64,000 bases of DNA from Thermoplasmatales archaeon (GTDB taxonomy: Archaea > Thermoplasmatota > E2 > UBA202 > JdFR-43). Position numbers and translations under genes: made by a program. The first letter of the stretch is position 1, and each line of letters starts with the position of its first letter. Positions 12,278-46,723 of the stretch are shown here, piece by piece. Under the pieces are notes generated by a model, which saw only the letters and a list, made by a program, of their open reading frames with translations, made no database searches and was not told the DNA's origin. The DNA lies in assembly GCA_014361195.1 (NCBI GenBank), contig JACIWA010000002.1:68310-132309 (forward strand). The letters are read 5' to 3'.

Positions 12278-12318
12278 AGAAATGAATTCTTTTTTGAGTT
12301 TAAATCTTTCTATGAAAG

Positions 12319-12402
12319 CGCGGGGAGCGAGATTTGAACTCGCGAGGTCATACGACCACAGGATTAGCAATCCTGCGCCTTACCAGGCTGGGCCATCCCC
12401 GC
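12319..12402 (-). tRNA. tRNA-Ser(GCT)
   Basis: Read on the minus strand, the acceptor GCGGGGA pairs with TCCCCGC and the discriminator is G. The anticodon arm is CAGGA-TTGCTAA-TCCTG, giving anticodon GCT (Ser, AGC/AGT codons). A long variable arm (class II) and a normal 7-base T-loop (GCGAG-TTCAAAT-CTCGC) are present. CCA is not encoded and no intron is visible. It lies between the CoaD-fusion gene and the C25 protease gene, all on the same strand. Confidence 0.95.
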
Positions 12403-39635: not shown

Positions 39636-39987
39636 TTTTTGAAATTAAAACCTTAATGGTTATATACAATAGATGCATTTAATGAGCTTGCAATTGCATA
39701 AATTATCTTCTCCATCTCCATCATCACCTACTTTGTTTAATATTATCATGCTATACTTTATCTTGCGTTGTCTGTAAACCTTTGCTGTTAAAATTACAAA
39801 CTGATGAAACATTGCATAATTTTAACAAATTAACAGTTAAATCCTGAAGATAGTGCATCTTTTAAGATTGGAAAAAGAATAATGCAAATTTTTTTGATCT
39901 CGTTGGCATAATGACCCTTTTAGAAAGAAAAATTTCATTGACAAACAGTTCAATATTAGAAGTTTATGACAAAATAATATTTATTAA
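39636..39987. other. AT-rich spacer without recognisable gene
   Basis: About 350 bases between the broken regulator and tRNA-Glu. I see no reading frame with protein-like content, no tRNA-like fold and no repeat. It looks like the tail of the decayed region. Confidence 0.5.
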
Positions 39988-40062
39988 TGCTCCCGTCGGG
40001 ATTTGAACCCGAGTCTTCGGCTCGAAAGGCCGAAATGATTGTCCGGGCTACACTACGGGAGC
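39988..40062 (-). tRNA. tRNA-Glu(TTC)
   Basis: On the minus strand the acceptor GCTCCCG pairs with CGGGAGC and the discriminator is A. The anticodon arm TCGGC-CTTTCGA-GCCGA gives anticodon TTC (Glu). The T-arm is normal (TCGGG-TTCAAAT-CCCGA). There is no encoded CCA and no intron. It is the downstream member of a tandem with tRNA-Gln, three bases apart. Confidence 0.96.
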
Positions 40063-40065
40063 ATG

Positions 40066-40138
40066 TAGCCCCGGGCAGATTCGAACTGCCGTCGGCGGGT
40101 CCAAAGCCCGCCATGCTTGACCACTACACCACGGGGCT
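40066..40138 (-). tRNA. tRNA-Gln(TTG)
   Basis: On the minus strand the acceptor AGCCCCG pairs with CGGGGCT and the discriminator is A. The anticodon arm GCGGG-CTTTGGA-CCCGC gives anticodon TTG (Gln). The T-arm is normal (GGCAG-TTCGAAT-CTGCC). The A1-T72 first pair is the kind recognised by the archaeal GatDE amidotransferase. The gatD gene starts 40 bases away on the other strand. Confidence 0.96.
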
Positions 40139-43571: not shown

Positions 43572-45942
43572 TGAAAGAATTCTTATAAGAGCTATTGAAG
43601 AAGAAATGAAGACTTCTTATTTAGATTATTCAATGAGCGTAATAATAGGAAGAGCTCTTCCAGATGTAAGAGATGGGTTAAAACCAGTTCATAGGAGGAT
43701 ACTCTATGCAATGAATGAAATGGGAATAAGGCACAACAAGGCTCACAGAAAATCCGCAAGAATAGTCGGAGATGTTCTCGGGAAATATCATCCACACGGC
43801 GATCAGGCGGTTTATGATGCTTTAGTAAGAATGGCACAGCCATTTTCAATGAGATATCCTCTTGTAGATGGTCAAGGTAATTTTGGAAGCATTGATGGAG
43901 ATGAGCCCGCAGCAATGAGATATACTGAAGCAAGGCTTTCAAAAATAAGTGAGGAAATACTTAAAGATATAGACAAGGATACGGTGACATGGAGGGATAA
44001 TTTCGATGGCACCTTAAAAGAGCCAGATTTCCTACCATCTTTATTGCCAAATCTGCTTGTAAATGGATCAAGAGGAATTGCGGTTGGGATGGCAACTGAA
44101 ATTCCCCCTCATAATTTAAATGAAGTTGTTGACGCTGTAATAGCAACAATTGATAATCCTGATATAACAATTCAAGAACTATTTAATTATATAAAAGGAC
44201 CGGATTTTCCAACAGGAGGAATAATTTGCGGGAGAGGAGCAATATTAAATGCATATGAAAAGGGGCAGGGAGTAATAAAAGTAAGGGCAAAAACGAGGAT
44301 TGAGGAAGATGCTATAATAGTAAATGAAATTCCTTATGGTGTAAATAAATCAAAATTGATTAAAGATATTGCAAATTTGGTTAAAAAAGGAAAAATAGAA
44401 GGAATTGCTGAATTGAGGGACGAATCTGATAGGAGTGGATTGAGAATATTTATAAGAGCTAAAAAGGGCATTGATCCAGAAATTGTGCTAAACCAGCTTT
44501 TCAAACACACACAGCTTGAAATCTCATATGGGATTCTGAATATTGCAATTGTAGATGGAACTCCAAAAATATTGAATTTAAAAGAAATGATTGTTGAGTA
44601 TATAAAACACAGAAAAAATATAATAACAAGAAGATGCGAGTATGAACTAAAGAAGGCGATAGAGAGAAAACACATTCTTGAAGGGCTTGTTAAAGCACTT
44701 GAAAATATAGATATGGTAGTTGATATCATAAAGAAATCAAAAGATAGTAAAGAAGCAATGGAAAATTTGATAAAATCCTTCAATTTTTCTCAAGCACAGG
44801 CAAAGGAAATTATATCAATGCCATTGTCAAAGCTAACTTCTTTTGAAACAGATGAAATAAGGAAAGAAAAAATTGAAAAAGAAAATGAAATAGAAAAACT
44901 CAATAGAATTTTAGGAGATAAAAATGAGATTTATAAAATAATAAAGGAGGAGTTGATTTATCTAAAAAGCACATATGGAGATGAAAGGAGAACTGAAATA
45001 GTGGAAGAGATAAGCGAGTTTGATAGGGAAGATTTTATCCCAGAAGAGAATATCATTATAATTTTAACCGATAAGGGCTATATAAAGAGAGTAAAACTTG
45101 AAGAATATAAAAGCCAGAGAAGAGGTGGAAAAGGAATTTTAGGAATGAAAGTAAAGGATGAAGATGAGGTTTATAGAACAATTGTTTCATCCACACATGA
45201 TGTATTACTTTTCTTTTCATCAGACGGAAAGATATATAAAAAGAAGGCTTATGAAATTCCACAGGGAGATAGATATTCTAAAGGAAGGGCAATAATAAAT
45301 TTACTTGGGTCAAGAGAGATAAAGGAAATTTTGCCAGTAAAAAATTTTGATGACTATCTTATTTTTGCAACAAAAAAGGGTATGGTAAAGAAAACATCTC
45401 TTAAAAACTTTATAAATATAAGGAGGAATGGAATAATTGCAATAAAACTCGATAAAGGAGATGAAATTATAGGTGTTAAAATCTTAAAGGAAAATGATAA
45501 AATAGTTTTATCTACAAGAAATGGATATGCATGTGTTTTTAATGAAAAAGATGTTAGGGCAATGGGAAGAAATGCGAGAGGGGTTAGAGGAATAAAGTTG
45601 AGAGGCGATGATGAAGTGGTATCTCTTGAAATAGGAAAGGATGATTTACTCACAGTAACTGAAAAAGGATATGGAAAAAGAACAAGTATAGATGAATATA
45701 GATTGACAAAAAGAGGAGCTAAAGGAGTGATCACAATAAAAATTAGTGAAAAGAATGGTAAGGTAGTGGGTGTTTTGTCGGTTAGGGAAGGAGATGAAAT
45801 TTTAATATCCACATCACAGGGAATGATTGAAAGAATAAAAGTCTCTGATGTAAGGAAGCAAGGAAGAAATACAATAGGAGTTAGGTTGATAAAACTCTCT
45901 GAAGAAGATAGAATAAAAAGCGTGACAAAAATAAGCTTTTAA
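43561..45942 (+). CDS. gyrA: DNA gyrase subunit A
   Basis: This is the cleavage subunit of gyrase. The 793 residues have [31 protein letters not shown], the catalytic Tyr121 in [10 protein letters not shown], and a C-terminal beta-propeller. The propeller holds the GyrA box SQRRGGKGI near residue 519, which marks true gyrase rather than topoisomerase IV. The start is a TTG at 43561 that overlaps the gyrB stop; no in-frame ATG exists nearby. Its TAA ends one base before tRNA-Ala. Confidence 0.98.
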
Positions 45943-45943
45943 T

Positions 45944-46028
45944 GGGCCGGTGGATCAGAGGAAGATCGCCTGCTTCGCAAGCAGGAGGTCGCGGGTTCGA
46001 AATGCAAACGAAAATCCCGCCCGGTCCA
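45944..46028 (+). tRNA. tRNA-Ala(CGC) with 13-base T-loop intron
   Basis: The acceptor GGGCCGG pairs with CCGGTCC (one G-T pair) and the discriminator is A. The D-arm is GATC-AGAGGAA-GATC, and the anticodon arm CCTGC-TTCGCAA-GCAGG gives anticodon CGC (Ala). Between T-stem strands GCGGG (45991-45995) and CCCGC (46016-46020) there are 20 bases instead of 7. Removing 46002-46014 leaves a perfect TTCGAAT loop and a 72-base tRNA. The gene starts one base after gyrA. CCA is not encoded. Confidence 0.88.
46002..46014 (+). other. tRNA-Ala intron at position 59/60
   Basis: The 13 bases ATGCAAACGAAAA interrupt the T-loop. TTCG at the start of the loop pairs with CGAA of the insert to form a 4-base-pair helix. 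A three-base bulge (AAT) separates this helix from the T-stem on the 3' side. Cutting two bases into that bulge, and two bases after TTCG, gives exactly a 7-base loop. There is no inner helix, so it is a minimal bulge-helix form. Confidence 0.75.
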
Positions 46029-46556
46029 TTATTCTTTAAATCTCTCCCATTCGCTTATCAGGCATCCGCAATATTTTTGGGTATATAGTGCATAGAGTTT
46101 TGTAATTGCTCTAGATTGGCTAACTCCTTCTCTAAAATCCTCATAATAAAAATCAATTTCATATTTTTTGCCGATTTCCTCACCTATTCTCTTTATTTCG
46201 CTGTGATATTGGTTATGGGAAGAAAGCAGTGTCGTTGAAAAAGCATCAAAGTAATTATCTTTCGCATATTTTGCGGTTTTATTAAGCCTGTATTCATAGC
46301 AATAAATGCATCTGTTGGGCCTTTCAAAATTTTTCATCTGCCTTAAATAATCTATAAAATCATATTTTTCATAAATTATTTTAACATCCTCAATTTTTGA
46401 ATATTTAATCAAAGTATCCTTCCTTGCTTTATATTCCATATAAGGATGTATATTTGGATTATACCAATAACCAACAACTTCATATCCTTCATCATTCAAT
46501 TTTTTATGAGGGTATACAAAACATGGCGCACAGCATACATGCATTAGAATTTTCAT
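46029..46556 (-). CDS. queH: QueH-like (DUF208) epoxyqueuosine-reductase family protein
   Basis: The roughly 175 residues have MHVCCAPCFVYPHKKL, GYWYNPNIHPYMEYKAR, RPNRCIYCYEYRLNKTA, FSTTLLSSHNQYHSEI and the C-terminal KYCGCLISEWERF. These cysteines match QueH, which in bacteria reduces epoxyqueuosine to queuosine using iron-sulfur and another metal centre. In archaea, which make archaeosine instead, the role is unclear. I used the ATG at 46556; the frame upstream overlaps tRNA-Pro. It lies exactly between two intron-bearing tRNA genes. Confidence 0.9.
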   Translation of the reverse strand: MKILMHVCCAPCFVYPHKKLNDEGYEVVGYWYNPNIHPYMEYKARKDTLIKYSKIEDVKIIYEKYDFIDYLRQMKNFERPNRCIYCYEYRLNKTAKYAKDNYFDAFSTTLLSSHNQYHSEIKRIGEEIGKKYEIDFYYEDFREGVSQSRAITKLYALYTQKYCGCLISEWERFKE

Positions 46557-46618: not shown

Positions 46619-46723
46619 TGGGCCCGCCGAGATTCTCAAGCAACCCGCAATGGGAGTTGCAATTTGAACTCGGGTCTATGGCTCCCGAAGCCACAAGGAT
46701 AAGCCAAACTACCCTACGGGCCC
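46619..46723 (-). tRNA. tRNA-Pro(CGG) with 30-base T-loop intron
   Basis: On the minus strand the acceptor GGGCCCG pairs with CGGGCCC and the discriminator is A. The anticodon arm GTGGC-TTCGGGA-GCCAT gives anticodon CGG (Pro). The T-stem strands CCGAG and CTCGG are 37 bases apart instead of 7. Removing 46633-46662 restores the loop TTCAAAT and a 75-base tRNA. A TTTAAAAATT box about 30 bases upstream may be its promoter. CCA is not encoded. Confidence 0.88.
46633..46662 (-). other. tRNA-Pro intron at position 59/60
   Basis: Read on the minus strand, the 30-base insert holds a hairpin (GCAAC paired with GTTGC, with a CCC-GGG extension). Around it TTCA of the loop pairs with TGAG of the insert. 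A three-base AAT bulge lies on each side of that 4-base-pair helix, and the T-stem closes the outside. This is a bulge-helix-bulge. Cutting two bases into each bulge gives TTCAAA plus T, a normal 7-base loop. Confidence 0.82.

Follow-up and report, generated by a model that had tools for sequence, protein, structure and literature searches.

The tRNA-Pro(CGG) gene of this Thermoplasmatales archaeon is interrupted in its T-loop by 30 nucleotides that we read, with high confidence, as a protein-spliced archaeal tRNA intron at position 59/60, one of a group of introns that reuse a single TTCRAA-T site and are spreading among tRNAs. Their removal is almost certainly the work of EndA, with RtcB joining the exons. 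Splicing is supported by covariation between exon and intron, the restoration of a 7-nt T-loop, the presence of introns in sole-copy tRNA-His and tRNA-Asp genes, and the presence of genes for both EndA and RtcB. Comparison of related genomes indicates that, within the host's Thermoplasmatota family, tRNA genes acquire and lose T-loop introns and that copies pass from one tRNA gene to another.

Frequent, recently spreading non-canonical tRNA introns are thereby extended to a Thermoplasmatota lineage in which they occupy one site and are accompanied by an endonuclease of a type that has been described as narrow in specificity. Two questions become testable: whether the spread of tRNA introns needs broad-specificity loops in the endonuclease, and by what route archaeal tRNA introns move. 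There is also a practical side, in that ARAGORN and Rfam, run with default settings, miss most of these tRNA genes or report them cut short, and tRNA-Asp, among others, then seems to be absent from such genomes.

Results

The tRNA-Pro(CGG) gene occupies positions 46619-46723, minus strand, of the window (the whole 64,000-nt stretch of DNA that was analysed); a manual cloverleaf and a genome scan mark it as the sole CGG gene found in the genome. Read from 46723 to 46619, the minus strand begins GGGCCCG TA GGG, passes through the CGG anticodon, and ends with CCGAG TTCAAA, the insert TTGCAACTCCCATTGCGGGTTGCTTGAGAA, and T CTCGG CGGGCCC A. The 5' exon (positions 1-59) thus lies at 46663-46723, the 30-nt intron at 46633-46662, and the 3' exon (T60 to A73) at 46619-46632, all on the minus strand. 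The exons supply an acceptor stem GGGCCCG/CGGGCCC, an anticodon stem GTGGC/GCCAT around TTCGGGA, and a T-stem CCGAG/CTCGG. As expected of an archaeal bulge-helix-bulge (BHB) intron, excision leaves a standard cloverleaf with the 7-nt T-loop TTCAAAT, and the insert is missing from the orthologue in the congener G001. The 30-base T-loop insert described for this gene by the first-pass annotation is confirmed. Because AA stands at both edges of the insert, its boundaries can be shifted by as much as 2 nt, and sequence alone cannot separate 57/58, 58/59 and 59/60; all three placements give an identical mature tRNA, and the cuts are placed at 59/60 by the BHB cutting rule. The predicted spliced T-arm would read TTCAAATCTCGG. 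The same annotation had named an intronless copy elsewhere in the genome, with no promoter for this copy, as evidence against the intron; the scanned genome holds no other CGG gene, and a TATA-like element, TTTAAAAA, lies about 28 bp upstream. Orthologues of the gene in relatives are 80-97% identical over the matched part, and its T-arm also matches the tRNA-His of another genome, G004 (81% over 55 nt, E 2.6e-6). Downstream of tRNA-Pro and on its strand, between the two intron-bearing tRNAs of the window, is a gene for the epoxyqueuosine reductase QueH (46032-46556, minus; PF02677, E 3e-56).

In the fold drawn for the precursor, the exon bases T54-A57 (TTCA, 46665-46668, minus) pair with TGAG in the intron (46635-46638, minus) through one G-U pair, forming the central 4-bp helix of the BHB; across the family, the first base of TGAG co-varies with base 57. 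The 3' bulge is AAT (46632-46634, minus), and by the BHB rule the 3' splice site would fall between its second A and T60. On the 5' side, A58, A59 and T are followed by an extra U opposite U, and then by a 7-bp inner helix, GCAACTC/GGGTTGC. One edge of the predicted BHB accordingly holds a U-U mismatch, so the motif departs from a perfect 3-4-3 structure. Of the full BHB described in the first-pass annotation, the TTCA/TGAG helix and the 3' AAT bulge can be drawn as stated; the 5' bulge is followed by the mismatch, and the minimum free energy (MFE) structure takes a shifted register. By ViennaRNA, the drawn BHB has -14.4 kcal/mol, a 5-bp variant -16.1, and the MFE structure, which uses a shifted TTC/GAA register, -16.8; the BHB and its variant lie about 2.4 and 0.7 kcal/mol above the MFE, close enough that a single fold is not decisive. 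The fold of the whole gene has z = -3.4 against shuffles. In the MFE structures of two other intron-bearing T-arms, Lys(TTT) forms a 3-4-3 BHB whose inner helix has 4 bp, and Ala(CGC) forms a bulge-helix-loop made up of a TTCG/CGAA helix, an AAT bulge and a loop that closes it.

Covariation across the family bears on the same helix. Of the four bases that the intron contributes to the central helix, the search pattern (given below) specifies three and leaves free n4, the partner of exon base 57. With counts collapsed to one row per anticodon and genus, base 57 and n4 are A-T in 17 rows, G-C in 19, A-C in 1 and G-T in 3 (Fisher p 4e-7 from the 2x2 table of A/G against T/C). In these rows n4 is T in 17 of the 21 with A57 and is C or T in 22 of the 31 with G57; in the others, where G most often faces A, the central helix has just 3 bp. 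A full 4-bp central helix is present in 55 of 73 short introns and is imperfect in the other 18. The inner helix, from i2:n5 to i7:n10, is paired in 68-75%, compared with 38-49% in shuffles and 23-26% in slid registers.

The host is represented by a 1.25-Mb metagenome-assembled genome (MAG), designated G000, of which 1,245,541 bases were scanned, including 14,891 N (contigs C17-C29 are N, and C30-C39 fell outside the scan). A cloverleaf scan that tolerated inserts in the T-loop and the anticodon loop recovered about 44 tRNA genes, 8 of them (about 18%) with T-loop inserts: His(GTG), 29 nt; Lys(TTT), 18; Ala(CGC), 13; Pro(CGG), 30; Leu(CAG), 13; Ala(GGC), 15; Asp(GTC), 17; and Arg(CCT), 15. Canonical introns occur in four tRNAs (Tyr, Thr(TGT), Trp and elongator Met), and 59/60 is the only non-canonical site seen. 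No second His, Asp or Pro(CGG) gene was found in the scanned DNA, with 1.5% of the genome missing; since the sole His and Asp genes carry inserts, the inserted copies must work, unless a second copy lies in that 1.5%. A loose scan of the same DNA gave nothing credible for Ala(TGC) or Arg(CCG), genes that may be on contigs outside the scan or otherwise interrupted.

The second intron-bearing gene of the window, tRNA-Ala(CGC), is on the plus strand at 45944-46028, about 590 bp from tRNA-Pro, with a 13-nt insert, ATGCAAACGAAAA, at the equivalent place in its T-loop (46002-46014, plus). It begins 1 nt past the gyrA stop codon (window 45940-45944) and may be co-transcribed with gyrBA. The first-pass annotation was right to pair two intron-bearing tRNAs some 600 bases apart, but its count was too low, as the genome-wide search for 59/60 insertions that it proposed yields six more. 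Its statement that tRNA-Ser, -Glu and -Gln of the window have no introns holds for tRNA-Ser(GCT) (12318-12402), tRNA-Glu(TTC) (39987-40063) and tRNA-Gln(TTG) (40065-40138), all on the minus strand and all recovered by ARAGORN and Rfam. With default settings on the window, neither program reported Pro(CGG) or Ala(CGC), because the T-loop of each is interrupted. ARAGORN with its intron options still missed seven of the eight intron-bearing genes of the genome, and Rfam missed five outright, gave weak or truncated matches to two, and found one whole.

Both enzymes expected for such introns are encoded. EndA, on contig C3, has 313 residues and two PF01974 (tRNA_int_endo) units, with A. fulgidus as its best PDB match (E 5e-31), and RtcB is on C9 (E 3e-184). 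By its domain arrangement, the host EndA is assigned to the alpha'2 type, like that of A. fulgidus. The named relatives of the host by EndA are Thermoplasmatota MAGs, for example Thermoplasmatales archaeon JdFR-43 at 64%, and we read their isolate names as pointing to hydrothermal sites. Aligned to the M. jannaschii and A. fulgidus proteins, the catalytic unit of the host EndA appears to have no lysine-bearing ASL/CSL-like insertion of 11-18 residues, and the catalytic region equals that of M. jannaschii EndA in length; such an insertion is likewise seemingly absent from all 16 EndA proteins aligned. The alpha'2 EndA of A. fulgidus is tabulated as narrow in specificity (PMC6379350), and the type has been described as limited to the canonical BHB (PMC12397907); homodimeric EndA also cuts BHL-like motifs (PMC8707768). 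A narrow enzyme could serve most of the T-loop introns here, because most offer 3-nt bulges around 4 bp, with the 13-nt introns as the hard case. Given the narrowness reported for the A. fulgidus enzyme, bulge-helix-loop forms such as these may be hard substrates for an alpha'2 EndA.

We searched related genomes with the pattern RGTTCRAAN{6,36}GRRAATCY, which gave 88 matches in 17 genomes of the host's family (17 for the reversed pattern) and 16 in the sister family of the order (reversed, 0). In the host's family, cloverleaves confirmed 73 distinct short T-loop introns (13-41 nt) from 14 genomes and 20 anticodon types. A longer class of 42-50 nt adds 16 confirmed cases from the host's family and the sister family, bringing the total for the two to at least 89 T-loop introns in more than 20 anticodon types. 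The 42-50-nt introns often contain an internal TTTCC and have two possible hairpin partners for the 5' arm. A T-loop intron sometimes coexists with a canonical one in the same tRNA, as in Leu(TAA), Thr(CGT) and Glu(CTC) of the host's family. Outside the order, the pattern gave about 1.8 matches per genome and its reverse about 1.0, many of them in ordinary T-loops or unrelated DNA, and we make no claim from these. Pro(CGG) itself has introns in G000, G002, G006, G009 and G011, and none in G001, G003, G007, G008, G010 and G012; the intronless gene of the congener G001 is 97% identical to that of G000 over the 63 nt matched. In G013 (family f2), tRNA-Pro(CGG) has an intron beside the anticodon and an uninterrupted T-loop.

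Introns are shared between tRNAs of different amino acids. The 13-nt intron of Ala(CGC) is identical to that of Leu(CAG) (C2:165098) in G000, and in G011 a 16-nt intron is identical in Arg(TCT) and Gln(CTG), each case falling within a single genome. These last two tRNAs have different third T-stem pairs, so the stretch that moved extended little past the loop. Cross-amino-acid pairs with similarity >=0.6 number 33, against a shuffle mean of 0.7. One hairpin, TGCAACTTG..CAAGTTGC, turns up repeatedly in tRNAs for Cys, Arg, Lys, Glu, Val, Gly, Ser and Ala; a search of 390 genomes of the phylum found it in the host's family alone, and all matches whose surroundings were inspected lie in T-loops. 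Between G000 and G001, orthologous introns are conserved in Lys(TTT), Leu(CAG) and Ala(CGC), and those of Arg(CCT) differ. To judge from their sequences, such identical and near-identical introns show copying between genes. A shared origin or spread of the introns, suggested at first from the window pair, is supported by these identities and by the recurrent family, although the 13-nt Ala and 30-nt Pro introns are themselves not near-identical, and each has its nearest relatives in other tRNAs. The comparison with introns of related genomes that had been proposed points to cross-tRNA copies as well as gain and loss.

One case places a T-loop intron inside a viral attachment site. In G001, a 22-kb head-tail provirus (C4:16831-38920) lies within the intron-containing tRNA-Arg(CCT) and encodes an integrase (PF00589), Terminase_6, Phage_portal_3, capsid, tail tube and tape measure proteins. 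It is bounded by a 75-nt direct (att) repeat that runs from the anticodon loop to the tRNA 3' end and includes the 30-nt T-loop intron. Its terminase has distant phage matches only, below 30% identity among the matches listed, and no viral contig matched either the intron-family pattern or this terminase. The provirus shows that an integrating virus can carry an intron-bearing tRNA segment; it is a single case and does not prove transfer.

Discussion

Few parts of tRNA vary as little as the T-loop, and this constancy offers a mechanism for the reuse of one site. In the precursor, T54-T55-C56-R57 would pair with YGRR near the 3' end of the intron, and an AAN bulge on either side of the TTCR/YGRR helix would complete the bulge-helix-bulge. 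The alpha'2 EndA would then cut both bulges, and RtcB would join the exons into a standard TTCRAAT loop. Since TTCRAA-T is nearly invariant across tRNAs, an intron ending in YGRRAA should be spliceable from almost any T-loop into which it is copied, and one site could therefore be reused while the identity of the tRNA changes. Candidate routes for copying at the DNA level are short-tract conversion, reverse splicing, and the attachment sites of mobile elements. We tentatively propose, as a conjecture that may well fail, that in this order the T-loop offers a small mobile intron (13-50 nt) a target already fit for splicing, since any tRNA provides one strand of the helix, and that such an intron spreads through the tRNA set and among hosts, partly in viral attachment sites, with a plain alpha'2 endonuclease that has no specificity loop.

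Two readings would dispense with splicing. That the insert is kept, giving mature tRNAs with enlarged T-loops, is highly improbable: contact between the T-loop and D-loop is near-universal in tRNAs, the inserts differ in length (13-50 nt) between exons that keep the standard form, they are absent from orthologues in the congener, their 3' ends co-vary with base 57 as a BHB requires, and EndA and RtcB are encoded. The failure of ARAGORN and Rfam to report the Pro and Ala genes might suggest decaying pseudogenes with chance insertions, an explanation to which we give almost no credence, as the cloverleaf exons are intact, each gene is the single copy with its anticodon, the sole His and Asp genes have the same insertion, many related genomes have insertions at the same site, and a TATA-like element precedes the Pro gene. 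A self-splicing group I or II intron was rejected, the introns, at 13-50 nt, being too short for a catalytic core, which takes up roughly 100 nt or more, and Rfam giving only tRNA matches in the window.

Accepting protein-spliced introns, one may still ask how they came to occupy so many tRNAs. Old introns inherited at 59/60 with repeated loss, their likeness across tRNAs arising by convergence on the BHB motif, would account for those conserved between G000 and G001 in Lys(TTT), Leu(CAG) and Ala(CGC). The likeness, however, extends outside the motif, in that a 13-nt and a 16-nt intron each recur unchanged in a second tRNA of their genome and Cys, Arg, Lys and Glu introns have an inner hairpin in common; together with the excess of cross-amino-acid pairs over shuffles and the different Arg(CCT) introns of G000 and G001, this makes purely vertical descent unlikely. 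Copying between genes is the reading we prefer, and it could be driven mainly by integrating viruses that use an intron-bearing tRNA 3' half as attachment site, between hosts as well as between tRNAs. The intron within the att repeat of the G001 provirus agrees with the proposal of intron gain through an intron-bearing attP (PMC3293823). We nevertheless regard a mainly viral route as doubtful: there is one case, whose att copies are identical so that the direction of transfer cannot be read from them; the route accounts more easily for exchange within one tRNA type than for moves from one type to another; and the intron-family pattern matched no viral contig.

The primary lists of archaeal non-canonical tRNA introns are reportedly those of Marck and Grosjean 2003 and Sugahara 2008. 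The 59/60 site, splicing at a BHB and the transposition of introns each have precedent in archaea. What is new, as far as we have found, is a lineage-wide expansion at a single site in Thermoplasmatota, with an alpha'2 EndA that has none of the loops associated with broad specificity, together with a 22-kb provirus that has an intron inside its 75-nt att repeat. A literature search, with subscription papers and tRNA databases outside its range, found no paper on tRNA introns of this Thermoplasmatota group.

The position, which the first-pass annotation had called odd, is indeed non-canonical but is listed among archaeal tRNA intron sites in the review PMC4090602. The introns described there resemble ours in position, size range (11-129 nt), BHB motif and use of EndA and RtcB, but there 59/60 is one of many sites, and Crenarchaeota and Nanoarchaeota are the rich sources, whereas here a single non-canonical site is used in Thermoplasmatota across more than 20 anticodon types. 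Intron transposition in Thermoproteales (Fujishima 2010, as described in PMC4090602) likewise involves very similar introns in unrelated tRNAs and recent gain; our case differs in its phylum, in a single T-loop site that the invariant TTCRAA could explain, and in an alpha'2 EndA without the crenarchaeal loop. Asgard archaea also have numerous non-canonical tRNA introns outside Thermoproteales, but there 92-95% of tRNA genes contain introns, often several (PMC11291895), compared with about 18% and one non-canonical site here. Finally, in Caldiarchaeum an integrated element has duplicated its attachment site in tRNA-Thr together with the intron that the site contains (PMC3293823), and the same holds for tRNA-Arg(CCT) of G001, where the element is a head-tail provirus, the intron lies in the T-loop, and the repeat spans 75 nt.
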